Source of the DNA: Pseudoclavibacter helvolus
GTDB taxonomy: Bacteria; Actinomycetota; Actinomycetes; Actinomycetales; Microbacteriaceae
DNA: 35,591 bases
NCBI RefSeq assembly: GCF_014191305.1
Contig: NZ_JACHWJ010000007.1
Span: forward strand, 1 to 35,591
Reading direction: 5' to 3'
Shown one piece after another: positions 20,940 to 26,651 of this stretch; positions within the stretch are counted from its first letter, which is position 1; each line of letters opens with the position of its first letter. The notes beneath the pieces were generated by a model. It searched no databases, was not told the origin of the DNA, and worked only from the letters and a program-made list of their open reading frames with translations. The translations under genes and the position numbers were made by a program.

Positions 20940-22781
20940 TTAAGAACGCCGGCGGATCGCGAGCTCCTTGCGCTGCGCCTCGATCGTCGCGATGAGCGTG
21001 CGTGCGTCGTGCGCACCGCTGTGACGCGTCTCACCGATGAAGAACGTGGGCGTGCCTCGCGCTCCGCTGTCGAGTGCGCTCTGCATGTCGTCGCGGATGC
21101 GCTGCGGCAGCGCCTCATCGAGCATGTCGGCGTCAAAGCGGTCGAGGTCAAGGCCGATCTCCTCCGCGTAACCGCGTAGGTACTGCACCTCGAGGCGCTC
21201 CTGGTTCGCGAAGAGCACGTTGTGCATCTCCCAGAACTTGCCCTGGTTCGCGGCGGCCTCTGACGCGATCGCGGCCTGGAAGGCATGCGGGTGGTAGTCC
21301 TCGAGCGGCAGGTGCCGCACGATGTACCGCGCCCCACCGTCGCTGAACTCGTCACGAAGGTCCTTCCACATGCCGGTCGCGCTGGCACAGAACGGGCACT
21401 CGAAGTCGAGGTACTCGACGATCGTGACCTGCGCATCCGGATCTCCGACGATGTGGTCATGCTCGGGGTCGACCGGGCGCGAGAGCGTGGTCGGCAGGTC
21501 CGCACTCGTCTCGTTCATCTTCACGCGCGCGAAGGTGAACGTGAGCCAGCCGATGACCCAGGAGAGCACCATCGCGATGAAGACGCCGACGATCGCCTGG
21601 CCGGCGACCTCGCCCTCGAGGGCGAGCGAGATGATGAGGAGCGACATCGTGAAGCCGATGCCGCTGAGCGCGGCGCCACCGGAGACGCTGCCCATGCCAA
21701 CACCCTGCGGGAGTGAGCCGAGGCCAGCTCGAACGGCGATCCAGCTGCCGAGCGCGATGCCGCCGAACTTGCCGAGGACAAGTCCCGCTACAACACCCCA
21801 GGTGACGGGTGAGGTGAGCGCGTCGCCGAGCATCCCACCGCGCAGGTCCACGCCAGCGTTGGCGAGCGCGAAGATCGGCACGATGAAGAGGGCGACGGGG
21901 CTGAGCAGAACCTCGTGGAGGCGCTCGTTGACGGAGATCGACTTGGCGAGGCCGAGCCGAACGTTGCGTGCCGCGTCTGCGCGCGGGGACTGCGTGAAGT
22001 CCCGGAACAGGCCCTTGGCTCGAACCACGTCTTCTCGTTCGGGGTCTGAAGCAGGAATGAGGAGGCCGGCTGCCATGCCGGCGAGTGACGGATGCACCCC
22101 GGAGGCGAGCGTCGCGGCCCACAGCACCACAATAAGCACGATGTACGGCGTGCTCCGCCACTCGTTCGCACGGGCGAGCAGGAACAGCAGCACGAGGCAG
22201 ACAACCGCGATACCGAGCGGCATCCACTGCACGGAGTCGGTGTAGACGATGCCGATGATCGACACCGCGAGGAAGTCGTCGACAACAGTGAGCGTCAGCA
22301 GGAACACGCGCAGCTGGCTCGACATCTTGGGGCCGACCAGCGCGAGCGCACCGAGCAGGAACGCCGTGTCAGTGCCGATGACGGCGCCCCACGCTTCTGG
22401 TGCGTCGCGGCCTGCGATGGCGAGGTAGATGAGTGCTGGCAGCACAACGCCGGCGATTCCGGCCACGATCGGGACAAGCGCCTGGCGGCGGTCGCGCAGC
22501 GAGCCGACCGCGAACTCCTGGCGAACCTCGAGGCCGATGAGGAAGAAGAAGATGACCATGAAGCCGTCGTTCACCCAGTGGTGCAGGCTCATGTCGATGC
22601 GGAAGTCGCCGATACCGATCGCGGCGTGCGTCTCCCAGAGGTGGACGTACGACTCAGACCAGGGCGAGTTCGCCCACAGCAACGCGAAGACCGCGACGCC
22701 CACGAGCAGCAGCGCGCTCCCCGACTCGGTGCGCAGCCTGTCGGCCACGAGTCGTACCCAGTCCTGTTTCTGTTTTCCCAT
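20940..22781 (-). CDS. nhaA: NhaA Na+/H+ antiporter fused to a DsbA-like thioredoxin domain
   Basis: A 613-residue two-domain membrane protein. Residues 1-425 form NhaA with about twelve helices, including the DLEVRQEF-like region GLEVRQEF, GTDTAFLLGALA, and the Asp pair TVVDDFLA (168-169) that carries ions in NhaA. Residues 435-613 form a DsbA/thioredoxin-like domain with CPFC (462-465), HLPLEDYHPHAF and a cis-proline loop GARGTPTFFIG. NhaA exports Na+ in exchange for H+. The extra domain would sit after the last helix and its partner is unknown; such fusions occur in other actinobacteria. GAGGGG lies five bases before the ATG. A TATGCT box (22836-22841) is a possible -10. Confidence 0.93.
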   Translation of the reverse strand: MGKQKQDWVRLVADRLRTESGSALLLVGVAVFALLWANSPWSESYVHLWETHAAIGIGDFRIDMSLHHWVNDGFMVIFFFLIGLEVRQEFAVGSLRDRRQALVPIVAGIAGVVLPALIYLAIAGRDAPEAWGAVIGTDTAFLLGALALVGPKMSSQLRVFLLTLTVVDDFLAVSIIGIVYTDSVQWMPLGIAVVCLVLLFLLARANEWRSTPYIVLIVVLWAATLASGVHPSLAGMAAGLLIPASDPEREDVVRAKGLFRDFTQSPRADAARNVRLGLAKSISVNERLHEVLLSPVALFIVPIFALANAGVDLRGGMLGDALTSPVTWGVVAGLVLGKFGGIALGSWIAVRAGLGSLPQGVGMGSVSGGAALSGIGFTMSLLIISLALEGEVAGQAIVGVFIAMVLSWVIGWLTFTFARVKMNETSADLPTTLSRPVDPEHDHIVGDPDAQVTIVEYLDFECPFCASATGMWKDLRDEFSDGGARYIVRHLPLEDYHPHAFQAAIASEAAANQGKFWEMHNVLFANQERLEVQYLRGYAEEIGLDLDRFDADMLDEALPQRIRDDMQSALDSGARGTPTFFIGETRHSGAHDARTLIATIEAQRKELAIRRRS

Positions 22782-23338: not shown

Positions 23339-24724
23339 CTACTGGCCTGTCGCGTAGCCGGGCGCCATGTCCATGAAGCGCGAGAAGTGCCCCTGGAAGG
23401 TCACGGTGATGGTGTCGGTCGGGCCGTTACGGTGCTTCGCGAGGATGAAGTCCGCCTCACCGCCTCGCGGGCTCTCACGGTCGTAGGCGCCTTCACGGTG
23501 CAGCAGGATGATCATGTCGGCGTCCTGCTCGAGCGATCCGGACTCACGGAGGTCGCTGGCCGCCGGGCGCTTGTCGGCACGCTGCTCAGGACCACGGTTC
23601 AGCTGGGAGAGCGCGATGACGGGCACGTCGAGCTCCTTCGCGAGCAGCTTGAGCGCACGAGAGAACTCGGAGACCTCCTGCTGACGGCTCTCGACGCGCT
23701 TGCCGCTTGTCATGAGCTGCAGGTAGTCGATGACGACGAGGTTGAGCCCGACCTTCTGCTTGAGCCTGCGGCACTTGGCCCGGATCTCGACGAGGGTCAT
23801 GTTCGGGCTGTCGTCGATGTACAGCGGAGCGTCCGAGATGTCACCCTGCGTGCGGGCGATCTGCGTGAGGTCCTCCTGCGTGAGGCCTCCAGCTCGCATG
23901 TGCTGCAAGCGCACGCTGGCCTCTGCCGAGATGAGACGCATGGCGATCTCGCTCTTGCCCATTTCGAGGCTGAAGAAGATCGAGGGCTTGCCGTGCGTGA
24001 TTGATGCGGAGCGTGCGAAGTCGAGGGCAACCGTCGACTTACCGAGACCGGGGCGCGCGGCGACGATGATGAGCTGGCCGCCGTGGAAGCCGTTCGTGAT
24101 GCGGTCGAGGTCACTGAACCCCGTCGGCACGCCCGTCATGCCGCCAGACTTGTTCTGGGCGGCGTCGATGTCGTTCTGCGCCTCGAGAATCGCCTCGGCG
24201 AGGACTACGTAGTCTTCCTTCTCGACGGCGCCCGTGACGCCATAGATCTCTGCCTGCGCCTGGTTGACGAGGTCGACGACCTCACCTTCCGCGAGGTAGC
24301 CCATCTGCACGATGCGCGTCCCGGCCTCGACGAGGCGCCGCAGCACGGCGCGCTCGGAGACGATGGCCGCGTAGTAACCGGCGTTGGCTGCGGTCGGAAC
24401 GATTCCGGCGAGCGTGTGCAGGTACTCGGCGCCGCCGGCGCGCGAGAGCTCGCCCGACTTCGTGAGGTGGTCGGTTACCGTGATGACGTCGGTCGGCTCG
24501 CCCGCCGCGTAGAGCGCGTGGACGGCGTCGAAGATGATCTCGTGCTTCGGCACGTAGAAGTCGATGCCGCGAACGCCTTCGACGACGTCGGCGACCGCAT
24601 CCTTCGAGAGGAGCATTCCTCCGAGCGCGGACTGCTCCGCGAGTAGATCGTGCGGAGGAGTGCGGACCCCGTCGTGCGTTTCGCGTTCACCCTGTGGCGG
24701 GGAACCGAGGTGCGCGATCGACAC
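23339..24724 (-). CDS. dnaB: Replicative DNA helicase DnaB
   Basis: A 461-residue replicative helicase that unwinds DNA ahead of the polymerase as a hexamer. The N-terminal domain contains PPHDLLAEQSALGGMLLSKD and the linker leads into a RecA-like domain with Walker A RPGLGKST (Lys229), FFSLEMGKSEIAMRLISAE, Walker B LVVIDYLQLM, and ALSQLNRGPEQR..RPAASDLRESGSLEQDAD. The start is the GTG at 24724, giving MSIAHLG as in related species, with AGGAG six bases upstream; a longer in-frame start at 24790 lacks such support. No intein is present. Upstream lies a cluster of DnaA boxes, so control by DnaA is possible. Confidence 0.97.
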   Translation of the reverse strand: MSIAHLGSPPQGERETHDGVRTPPHDLLAEQSALGGMLLSKDAVADVVEGVRGIDFYVPKHEIIFDAVHALYAAGEPTDVITVTDHLTKSGELSRAGGAEYLHTLAGIVPTAANAGYYAAIVSERAVLRRLVEAGTRIVQMGYLAEGEVVDLVNQAQAEIYGVTGAVEKEDYVVLAEAILEAQNDIDAAQNKSGGMTGVPTGFSDLDRITNGFHGGQLIIVAARPGLGKSTVALDFARSASITHGKPSIFFSLEMGKSEIAMRLISAEASVRLQHMRAGGLTQEDLTQIARTQGDISDAPLYIDDSPNMTLVEIRAKCRRLKQKVGLNLVVIDYLQLMTSGKRVESRQQEVSEFSRALKLLAKELDVPVIALSQLNRGPEQRADKRPAASDLRESGSLEQDADMIILLHREGAYDRESPRGGEADFILAKHRNGPTDTITVTFQGHFSRFMDMAPGYATGQ

Positions 24725-24814
24725 GGATGCTCCTGACTTCGCTCGAATGCCGGTGAGAGATTTCCCAACAGTAGTCCCCACCTCCCCCACCGAGCGAACG
24801 CTCCGCGGCGTGCC

Positions 24815-25060
24815 TGTGGATAACCCTGTGTGAAACTGTGGAGACGCGCCGTGGCACTTGTGGAAACTGTGTGGAAAACGTGGCTACCAATTGGTTGGTA
24901 TTTACCCGCAAAGCACGTTTGACCTGGTATTTACTCTTCCACAGGTGCTGTGCATAACAGGTGTGAAGCATCCATTGAAGGTTGAGAGTGCAGGGCGGCT
25001 CTGTGCATAACATCCAGCACAGACCCCGCGCAAACCGGAGATATCCGGGCGTTTTCCACA
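24815..25060. promoter_or_regulatory. DnaA-box cluster upstream of dnaB
   Basis: Five 9-mers match TTWTNCACA: TTATCCACA at 24815-24823 (minus, perfect), TTTTCCACA at 24870-24878 (minus), TTATGCACA at 24949-24957 and 25002-25010 (both minus), and TTTTCCACA at 25052-25060 (plus). Weaker sites are GTTTCCACA (24859-24867, minus) and TCTTCCACA (24935-24943, plus). The spacing of the five is about 50-80 bp, and the middle is clearly richer in AT than its surroundings. The whole 24725-25082 gap holds no gene. It could control dnaB, titrate DnaA or take part in initiation. Confidence 0.65.
24896..24934. repeat. AT-rich direct repeat inside the DnaA-box cluster
   Basis: TGGTATTTAC occurs at 24896-24905 and again at 24925-24934. 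The stretch 24885-24938 is among the most AT-rich of the window, and could be an unwinding element or an additional protein site. Confidence 0.5.
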
Positions 25061-25082: not shown

Positions 25083-26651
25083 TCAGCGTGACGTATCAGC
25101 CCGCAGCCGTTGCCTGCGCTTGCGCCTCGCAGCCAGGCTGTCGACCAGTACCTGGCCGTATGGGACCGCGACAAGCAGTGCGCGCCCTGAGACGTTCCTC
25201 GAGCGCCACCACCACACGAGTACCGACAGCGCGAACAAGACCGTGATGAGCGCTACGACGAGCCTCGTGTACGGCCCCTCGAAGAACGAGTCGGTTGGCT
25301 CGGCCAACGTCACCGTCGTGAAGAAGACCGTCGCAAGCACCGCCAGGTCCTCCTGCCCCTTCCGCCACGGCCCCGCGACGGCCGCGAAAGGGAGGATCCA
25401 CATCACGTACCAGGGGTGGATTGCCGTGGAAGCGGCCACGATGACCGCGGTGCACAGCACCAGGCGAAGCACGGGGTCGATAGGTCGCTTGGTGATGACA
25501 ACCCACGACGCGACGAGGCCCGCCAGCGAGAAGGCGATCACTTTGAGAATGATCTCGAACACAAACGGGTCAAGCGAGACAAGCTCGGCAAGACCGCGAA
25601 CCGTACCGACCATGAGCGTGAGCGGCGAGTACCAGTGCTGGATCGCCCCCGGAACCGTGAGCGCTGTCACCCACCCGAAGCCGAGGCCGAGCACAAGACC
25701 GAGAGCCCCGACCAGGCCGATGGCGATCGCGCCGTGCAGCGCCCAGCTCTTCACCCTGTCCCACAGAGGAAGCGTGCTCGGGCGGCCGACAAGCGCCACG
25801 ATGGGCAGGGCGATGAGCGCGATCGGCTTGATGGCGATCGCAAGCGCGATCAAGACGACTGCCAGGATGCGGCGGCCCTTGAGAGCCGCCAGAAGCCCGA
25901 ACCCCATACCGGCGAGCATGAGCCCGTCGTTGTGCCCTGAGGCGATGAACAGGAGGAGCGTGAGGGGGTTCGCCGCGATCATCCAGGCGACGAAGGCGCG
26001 ATTGCGGCCGCGGAGGGCGGCGATCTTGAGGAAGGCGACGACCATGAGCACGGCTCCCGCGGTCGCGGCCAGCCGGTTCAGGAAGAGCGCGTACTCGGGG
26101 ATCTCGGCACCGAGCCAGGAGAAGACGGCGGCGACCGCGATGAAGAGCGGGCCGTAGGGCGATTCGGTGCTCGACCAGAAGGGGTCGACTCCGAGCGAGT
26201 ACCAGCCTGCAATCTCGTTGACGCCGTGTTGGTACGGGTCGATGCCGGCCGCCATGAGGCGGCCCACCGCGACATACGAGAACATGTCCCGGCTGAAGAC
26301 TGGCACGCAGATGAGCAGGGGAAGAGCCCAGATCACGGAGGTCCTGATCACACGCCGCAACGAGGCGTCGTCGTCGCGAATGCTGGGTCTGAAGCGCAAC
26401 CACGCGATGACCAGGAGGAATCCGCCCACGATGAGCAGCATCGTGCAGAGGCGCGTCAGGTCGGGCGAACTCCGGAAGAACGCGATGGGAAACCACTCCC
26501 GCAAGCCGAGGCCGTCGCCGATCCAACCGGCACCGAACGAGCCGACAAGGATGCACAGCGAGCCGATCAGGCCGAGGAACGTCGGGCTCACTGTCGCCGG
26601 AAAGCGGCGCGGCTCGCGCGCGATCACGGTTCGGTGAGTTTGGTGCGGCAT
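25083..26651 (-). CDS. MptB-like polyprenol-phosphate-mannose mannosyltransferase
   Basis: A 522-residue GT-C-type membrane glycosyltransferase with about 12-13 helices. After helix 3 the motif SRDMFSYVAVGRLMAAGIDP (120-139) matches the MptB/MptA group, where the Asp (122) is the likely catalytic residue in the first outer loop; SPYGPLF and SGHNDGLMLAG follow, as in these enzymes. They add alpha-1,6-mannose from polyprenyl-phosphomannose to lipoglycans on the outer membrane face. The C-terminus is basic (ARRKRRQRLR). It sits between rplI and dnaB and separates this usually adjacent pair. The start at 26651 has no clear ribosome site. Confidence 0.8.
   Translation of the reverse strand: MPHQTHRTVIAREPRRFPATVSPTFLGLIGSLCILVGSFGAGWIGDGLGLREWFPIAFFRSSPDLTRLCTMLLIVGGFLLVIAWLRFRPSIRDDDASLRRVIRTSVIWALPLLICVPVFSRDMFSYVAVGRLMAAGIDPYQHGVNEIAGWYSLGVDPFWSSTESPYGPLFIAVAAVFSWLGAEIPEYALFLNRLAATAGAVLMVVAFLKIAALRGRNRAFVAWMIAANPLTLLLFIASGHNDGLMLAGMGFGLLAALKGRRILAVVLIALAIAIKPIALIALPIVALVGRPSTLPLWDRVKSWALHGAIAIGLVGALGLVLGLGFGWVTALTVPGAIQHWYSPLTLMVGTVRGLAELVSLDPFVFEIILKVIAFSLAGLVASWVVITKRPIDPVLRLVLCTAVIVAASTAIHPWYVMWILPFAAVAGPWRKGQEDLAVLATVFFTTVTLAEPTDSFFEGPYTRLVVALITVLFALSVLVWWWRSRNVSGRALLVAVPYGQVLVDSLAARRKRRQRLRADTSR

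Follow-up and report, generated by a model that had tools for sequence, protein, structure and literature searches.

An ordered module of DnaA boxes upstream of dnaB recurs across Actinomycetes and is a candidate for DnaA control outside the origin

What does a dense cluster of DnaA boxes do directly in front of the gene for the replicative helicase? The intergenic region upstream of dnaB in Pseudoclavibacter helvolus raises this question, as it holds an extra-origin cluster whose boxes lie far above chance and which is found at the same place in relatives. The control of DnaA outside oriC in actinomycetes is, to our knowledge, little understood, and the organisms concerned include antibiotic producers, soil and freshwater bacteria, and relatives of the tubercle bacillus.

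The stretch of DNA analysed here (the window) is a complete contig, C7, of 35,591 bp, taken from a draft assembly of 12 contigs and 3.84 Mb. The product of its dnaB gene is 99% identical over the best tblastn segment to the counterpart in Pseudoclavibacter terrae (class Actinomycetes, family Microbacteriaceae). Its start codon, a GTG at 24725, was inferred from the starts of relatives and leaves a gap of 357 bp to the end of the upstream gene at 25083. Searches of the draft assembly with family profiles detected neither dnaA nor dnaN, at a completeness given as 97.2%: PF00308 returned four partial matches of equal score, all on contig C1, which we infer to be other AAA+ proteins, PF08299 gave sub-cut-off matches only, and the beta-clamp family gave none. 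Contig C7 stops short of the position at which the dnaA cluster is expected from relatives. A tRNA scan found none, and an ORF on the minus strand at 20940-22781 presumably encodes an NhaA-like sodium/proton antiporter fused to a DsbA/thioredoxin-like domain, as judged by eye.

The five 9-mers of the pattern TTWTNCACA that the first-pass annotation had placed before dnaB are all present (Table 1), and the window contains no others. Across the 3.84-Mb genome the strict pattern occurs 34 times, with 5 of these occurrences packed into 246 bp upstream of dnaB and 29 elsewhere, while the reversed pattern occurs 9 times in the same genome; the density here is not ordinary, and the earlier statement that the boxes exceed chance is borne out. 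When up to two mismatches to TTATCCACA are allowed, nine matches fall within 24815-25060 and 32 across the window, with at most three per 400-bp stretch (steps of 100 bp) outside the dnaB gap. The AT-rich core that had been described also exists, but in a mild form, with 45-65% AT per 20-bp bin through the core vs 33% for the window. The direct 10-mer repeat TGGTATTTAC is real as a sequence, with copies at 24896 and 24925, but it is not a shared feature: none of 80 related loci carries two copies, and the second copy merely overlaps the conserved element CCAGGTCA. The repeat was therefore rejected as a core element.

Table 1. Features of the dnaB upstream region in the window; offsets are relative to the box nearest dnaB, and counts of family rows refer to the anchored alignment described in the text.
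Feature	Coordinates	Strand	Remarks
dnaB, replicative helicase	23339..24725	-	Pfam DnaB and DnaB_C; mechanical ORF start 24790
Glycosyltransferase-like membrane protein	25083..26651	-	GT87 match below cut-off; lies between rplI and the module
DnaA module, oriented as dnaB	24809..24966	-	Row 1 of alignment A2; profiles R1 and R2
DnaA box TTATCCACA, dnaB-proximal anchor, offset 0	24815..24823	-	Anchor of the family alignment by construction
Degenerate box GTCTCCACA, offset -22	24837..24845	-	Box-like in 8/80 family rows; usual step of class modules
Degenerate box GTTTCCACA, offset -44	24859..24867	-	Box-like in 35/80 family rows
DnaA box TTTTCCACA, offset -55	24870..24878	-	Box-like in 21/80 family rows
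10-mer TGGTATTTAC, two copies (24896-24905, 24925-24934)	24896..24934	+	Unconserved
Conserved non-DnaA element CCAGGTCA, offset -104	24920..24927	-	Belongs to the class-wide composite
Inverted degenerate box TCTTCCACA, offset -120	24935..24943	+	One half of the inverted pair
DnaA box TTATGCACA, offset -134	24949..24957	-	Second half of the inverted pair; box-like in 33/80 family rows
Outlying DnaA box TTATGCACA, offset -187	25002..25010	-	Family peaks at -189/-190
Outlying inverted DnaA box TTTTCCACA	25052..25060	+	Present in L016 too

Conservation was examined in the best 80 loci with a close DnaB relative, whose titles we take to be Microbacteriaceae or genera of that family, except for L071 and L080. 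The usual gene order in these relatives is rpsF-ssb-rplI-[module]-dnaB. Strict boxes number 124 in the 1.496 Mb covered, and 109 of them lie at most 700 bp upstream of dnaB, so the box cluster is conserved in close relatives; at least one such box precedes dnaB in 62 of the 80 loci, with 18 lacking any. A glycosyltransferase-like gene separates rplI from the module in the window, L015, and L016 (tblastn finds it absent from the rest of the 80 fetched loci), and an insertion of approximately 3 kb does so in L046; in each case the boxes remain with dnaB. In 36 of the 80 loci a different word, CAACCTTCAA with up to one mismatch, falls in the 700 bp preceding dnaB, where it stands upstream of the family module (e.g. 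L017, L027, and L075); none was found in 700-bp stretches tested inside dnaB.

An alignment of 80 sequences (79 loci and the window, L033 having no anchor) set on the box nearest dnaB uncovered a fixed arrangement. Forward box-like 9-mers, with two mismatches allowed, recur at offsets -12 (51 of 80), -44 (35), -55 (21), -57 (15), and -67 (44), and farther out at -134 (33) and -189/-190 (26), along with an inverted box at -121/-122 (23), relative to a background of 0.09 per offset in the flanks. Between the two groups, CCTGGTCA with up to one mismatch falls within 2 bp of -104 in 45 of 80 sequences, compared with 0.45 in random windows. Columns -70 to -2 carry 0.63 bits of information on average, those of the flanks 0.13-0.17. 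A profile built from 31 family rows, R2, in whose alignment (A2) the window is row 1, matches 58 of 60 Microbacteriaceae genera at E <= 0.01, although these 60 test genomes may include R2 training rows, which both this profile and the class profile R1 described below match by construction. Within the genome of the window, whose row is in the training set, the dnaB copy at 24811-24958 is the only R2 match at E <= 0.01 (E 1.2e-17). Thirty R2 matches were fetched, 29 placed at dnaB itself and 1 at rplI and ssb; a second copy is thus not obligatory, since all 30 fetched family matches are the dnaB copy. Some family genomes contain a weaker second R2 match, such as one of 41 bits at G365:C3:158901-159047, ~76 kb from the main match.

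For the view beyond the family, dnaB loci were drawn evenly across class genomes and across phylum genomes. The class box count rests on 29 full-length loci from 18 other families, several sharing one (e.g. L125, L126, and L140); they comprise 27 of the 30 loci fetched from the class draw and two from the phylum draw, about half of the 59 genomes matched being used, and the other-class set comprises 23 of 26 loci (six incomplete loci were left out: L137, L144, and L146 from the former, L188, L200, and L215 from the latter). In the 600 bp upstream of the DnaB domain, the class loci contain 92 boxes with up to one mismatch to TTATCCACA or TTGTCCACA, compared with 4.3 in dinucleotide-preserving shuffles, 4 matches to the reversed motif, and 9 boxes in 52 kb downstream, and 24 of the 29 loci contain two or more. 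The 23 dnaB loci from other classes, shuffled in the same way, contain 10 boxes vs 2.2 expected, and only one has two or more.

Inspection of the aligned print-outs yielded a class composite, TCCACA-N4-GTGGA-N11-CAGGTCA, in which an inverted box pair is followed by a motif unrelated to DnaA. With free spacing and up to two mismatches of 18, 42 of the 81 family sequences have it (the window among them, at a 6/11 spacing), as do 16 of the 29 class loci, compared with 0 and 0.1, respectively, in shuffles that preserved base counts only and 0 of 29 in the first 630 bp downstream; the remaining 39 family and 13 class sequences lack it at this stringency. The motif CAGGTCAG alone, with up to one mismatch, is modestly enriched (17 of 29 class loci vs 4.5 in base-count shuffles). 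At the fixed 4/11 spacing and with up to one mismatch, a search of 246 class genomes recovered 68 matches in 64 genomes, vs 6 matches for the backward control. None of the 12 genomes of the window's family in this sample, its own genome included, has the 4/11 form, because the family uses other spacings. Beyond the composite, TCCACA-like words in 30 fetched matches pile up at +64 (22), +86/87 (22), +108/109 (25), +119/120 (22), and +131/132 (23), with a lesser peak at +52 (6), over an average background of 1.4 per offset. These steps of ~11 or 22 bp give the same register as the family offsets -67, -44, -22, -12, and 0. As read from the alignments, the unit is a rigid module of ~150 bp, composed of an inverted box pair, a fixed CAGGTCA/CTGGTCA motif, and head-to-tail boxes on an 11-bp grid.

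A second profile, R1, was built from 30 class rows (alignment A1), which represent 28 distinct places, as L218 occurs twice and L217 and L129 are one place; 20 lie beside a YgjP-like gene and 8 at dnaB. R1 is built from rows of other families with the window left out, and it matches the window module with E 1.0e-6. Of 98 class genomes it matches 88 at E <= 0.01 and 79 at E <= 1e-6, and of 55 genomes from other classes 19 and 2, respectively; the E-values of both profiles are rough. At least 43 of the 58 class genomes in which dnaB was placed have an R1 match ahead of the DnaB domain at a distance of 135-375 bp, 8 of these 43 being training places, and among the matches listed the module is oriented as dnaB in 43 of 43. 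Confinement of the feature to Microbacteriaceae is contradicted by the class box counts and by the R1 matches, and was rejected. A feature of dnaB throughout the phylum was rejected on the single other-class locus with two or more boxes and the 2 of 55 other-class genomes matched at E <= 1e-6.

The module also has a second address. Among the 30 fetched matches to the 4/11 composite, 6 are at dnaB and the other 24 next to a gene encoding a YgjP-like metallopeptidase (PF01863), and the 30 fetched R1 loci divide in the same way, with the 6 at dnaB assigned by tblastn in three cases, by place in two, and by rplI and ssb in one; the two fetched sets (L216-L245 and L276-L305) overlap. The neighbourhood of the YgjP copy often includes a Zincin_2 gene and an enoyl-CoA hydratase-like gene, the latter named by eye. 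The YgjP copy presents its inverted-pair end to the gene in 24 of 24 cases in each of the two overlapping sets, whereas the dnaB copy presents its array end. At least 23 of 58 class genomes have both a match at dnaB and another of at least 40 bits, and at least 33 of 58, with weak matches counted, have an R1 match somewhere other than dnaB or dnaA. In two single-contig genomes, G056 and G089, dnaA and the second R1 match are 1.24 and 1.49 Mb apart, respectively. YgjP-side modules were seen in many actinomycete families (e.g. L219, L222, L237, and L276-L281); both other-class R1 matches at E <= 1e-6 belong to one family, f46, and the one that was fetched, L308, lies beside a YgjP-like gene. Neither the rigid architecture, nor the conserved non-DnaA motif, nor the second copy elsewhere in the class figured in the first-pass annotation.

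The relation of the dnaB site to the origin was evaluated in relatives. In all 30 family genomes searched, dnaA was located, and in the 28 that have both genes on one contig it lies 16.1-37.6 kb from dnaB, on its upstream side (28 of 28). The two genes are not on one contig in L063 and L081, and in L081 dnaB lies at least 330 kb inside its own contig and keeps three strict boxes. The same holds in G032, from another family of the order, where the module accompanies a dnaB that lies 473 kb or more inside a contig other than that of dnaA. An origin-like region follows the dnaA stop codon (13 of the 30 were printed), and most of these regions hold a pair resembling TTATCCACA-TTTCCACA with a TTAA-rich stretch behind it. 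The word TGTAGTTCCC occurs in 17 of the 30 family dnaA loci (L095-L124), between dnaA and dnaN in the printed cases. At least one strict box lies in 26 of 30 dnaA-dnaN regions. The site at dnaB is thus strongly supported as a second DnaA-binding locus apart from oriC, as had been suggested: the dnaA-dnaN regions of relatives hold boxes of their own, and dnaA is 16-38 kb away. Judged in relatives, since dnaA and dnaN were not found in the draft, the dnaB site lies outside the rpmH-dnaA-dnaN location of oriC. It is not the main origin, because a separate oriC follows dnaA in relatives; we rejected that role on this ground, on the distance to dnaA, and on the GC skew, which across 57 loci makes no turn from negative to positive along dnaB, the mean being +0.018 over the upstream 10 kb, where 48 of 57 loci are positive, and +0.002 on the downstream side, where 31 are, a weak signal. 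We also rejected the notion that oriC regularly bears the composite, which with up to two mismatches is found in 2 of the 30 regions on one strand and in 3 on the other, vs 0.1 each in base-count shuffles. Words like CCTGGTCA occur in 30 of 30 oriC regions, a count that is uninformative because a near match is encoded at the start of dnaN and roughly one such word per region is expected by chance.

Our preferred interpretation, which we hold with about even confidence, is that the region is a predicted DnaA-control module (a sink or activity switch, like datA and DARS) that would also influence dnaB. It is favoured by the box density, the conservation at dnaB in family and class, the rigid interior, the copy at a second gene, and the mycobacterial DnaA binding described below. 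Against it stand the 18 family loci without a strict box, the sequences that lack the composite, the modest class enrichment of CAGGTCAG alone, the R1 matches in other classes at E <= 0.01, and the finding that a second copy is not obligatory. Chance enrichment or a compositional artefact has next to no probability: strict boxes are short and 29 others are scattered over the genome, yet the 92 class boxes stand against 4.3 expected, with only 4 and 9 (in 52 kb) in the reversed and downstream controls, the spacing is fixed across genera, and the conservation that was found refutes chance. An auxiliary origin, or the distant half of a bipartite oriC, where DnaA would melt the DNA, can appeal to the strict boxes of the 30 genomes, which total 50 on the dnaB side vs 60 on the dnaA-dnaN side (where some stretches extend into dnaN) and are as numerous or more so on the dnaB side in 14 of 30, as well as to the 4 of 30 dnaA-dnaN stretches that have no strict box, to the proximity of dnaA in 28 of 28 genomes, and to a moderate rise of AT content to 0.54-0.57 beside the array in the family. 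We consider it very improbable, as relatives have the separate origin-like region after dnaA, the site is distant from dnaA in L081 and G032, and the upstream skew, although weak, is positive in most loci where an origin here would give a negative value. The linker in 30 class modules is not AT-rich either (0.32 vs 0.28 in the flanks), and given this, the unconserved 10-mer, and the missing turn in mean skew, the replication-start element that the first-pass annotation had entertained is not supported.

A more substantial alternative, credible to us though somewhat short of probable, is that the module is a regulatory site of the dnaB promoter only, at which DnaA bound upstream would activate or repress dnaB so that helicase supply tracks the initiator, the YgjP copy marking a second target gene. 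Plain gene regulation fits because all placed copies lie directly 5' of dnaB or of the YgjP-like gene, and because the module stays with dnaB despite the insertions between rplI and dnaB (the glycosyltransferase-like gene, and ~3 kb in L046 and G032), as it does deep inside contigs without dnaA (at least 330 kb in L081, 473 kb in G032) and in its constant orientation. Direct regulation of dnaB fits also because the DnaA I282T variant binds the dnaB promoter less and under-expresses dnaB, as reported in the available part of PMC7738170, which in addition cites DnaA binding upstream of dnaB in Caulobacter. Against a mere promoter switch, in our judgement, a rigid 150-bp array with a fixed second motif exceeds what such a switch needs, the distance from the module to a promoter-like motif varies from 63 to 273 bp, and the entire module recurs at an unrelated gene with its opposite end facing that gene. 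Taken together, the internal rigidity, the looser outer spacing, and this reversed reuse suggest a unit whose target is DnaA itself more than a promoter switch.

The promoter-like motif in question is the word TGTCRG-N9-13-TA, which we take to resemble the RecA-NDp/PafBC DNA-damage promoter. Among the 81 family sequences, 40 carry it ahead of dnaB (1.6 in base-count shuffles), as do 12 of 29 class loci (0.4); it was not found in the window. In 38 of the 40 it stands 63-155 bp from the anchor box, and in the other two 270-273 bp. PafBC acts via RecA-NDp (PMC6789036), and the mitomycin response of dnaB in M. tuberculosis is partly PafBC-dependent (PMC8151990), according to the portions of these papers available.

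Under the DnaA-control reading, DnaA would bind the inverted box pair and assemble along the head-to-tail boxes, which lie about one helical turn apart; the phased head-to-tail row suggests such an oligomer. A putative partner protein would probably sit on the fixed CAGGTCA/CTGGTCA motif between pair and row, the constancy of this motif being what suggests a partner. The module would then most likely withdraw DnaA near the origin or alter its nucleotide state, in the manner of datA, DARS, and oriC-proximal clusters, and its occupancy by DnaA may also tune dnaB transcription, since it lies directly upstream of that gene; if so, the module may tie helicase supply to the initiator. Titration of DnaA and coupling of dnaB expression to DnaA, both proposed in the first-pass annotation, are thus candidate roles that do not rule each other out. 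A bolder and on the whole doubtful extension is that this is the Actinomycetes' own counterpart of datA/DARS, a rigid module of inverted box pair, putative partner-protein site at CAGGTCA, and 11-bp-phased DnaA platform, set at dnaB (origin-proximal) and at the YgjP-like locus (apparently origin-distant), that would reset or sequester DnaA and time replication; if true, it would do so in a class for which little is known of such controls. The fixed layout, the fixed second motif, and two predictable addresses make DnaA control outside oriC directly testable in these bacteria.

Parts of this picture are already known. DnaA-box clusters outside oriC have been described as datA, as DARS, and in Bacillus subtilis and Streptomyces coelicolor, and binding of mycobacterial DnaA in front of dnaB is published. 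Five regions are recovered with DnaA of M. tuberculosis, namely oriC, Rv0010c-Rv0011c, Rv0057 upstream of dnaB, Rv3843c-RVnc0040, and rpmH-dnaA, and the binding upstream of dnaB was seen by IDAP-seq (Rv0057 region) and by ChIP-seq in the homologous region of M. smegmatis (available part of PMC7738170). That site resembles the present one as a DnaA site directly upstream of dnaB and one of five highly enriched regions, but the accessible text of PMC7738170 describes no ordered array, CAGGTCA motif, or class-wide conservation, and does not name a YgjP site among the five. A literature search, to which subscription papers were mostly closed, surfaced no description of the rigid module, the CAGGTCA motif, the class-wide spread, or the YgjP copy.

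Among the known systems, the S. coelicolor clusters outside oriC (Smulczyk-Krawczyszyn et al. 2006) lie near oriC, repress untimely initiation, and are analogous to datA, according to the excerpts available of PMC10950094 and PMC4585315; one of them may be the dnaB module. The oriC-proximal DnaA-box clusters of B. subtilis (Okumura et al. 2012, as cited in the available part of PMC10950094) likewise repress untimely initiation and are likened here by description. The E. coli sites datA, DARS1, and DARS2 share with the present module a non-coding location and several DnaA boxes, and datA and DARS2 also have fixed sites for other proteins, DARS2 carrying six boxes with IHF and Fis sites (PMC4585315, in the part available). 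In this comparison, likewise drawn from descriptions, the present module is marked by the CAGGTCA motif, a candidate site for a partner protein, and DARS2 by its IHF and Fis sites.

A further box cluster was seen in the genome of the window (G000) at positions 25326-25346 of contig C8 (L009 5326-5346), where two strict boxes 12 bp apart and inverted near-boxes lie between crgA (PF06781) and a rhomboid gene, with a cyclophilin gene and a PASTA kinase gene nearby. Rv0011c is crgA, and the cluster may be the counterpart of the published mycobacterial site Rv0010c-Rv0011c.
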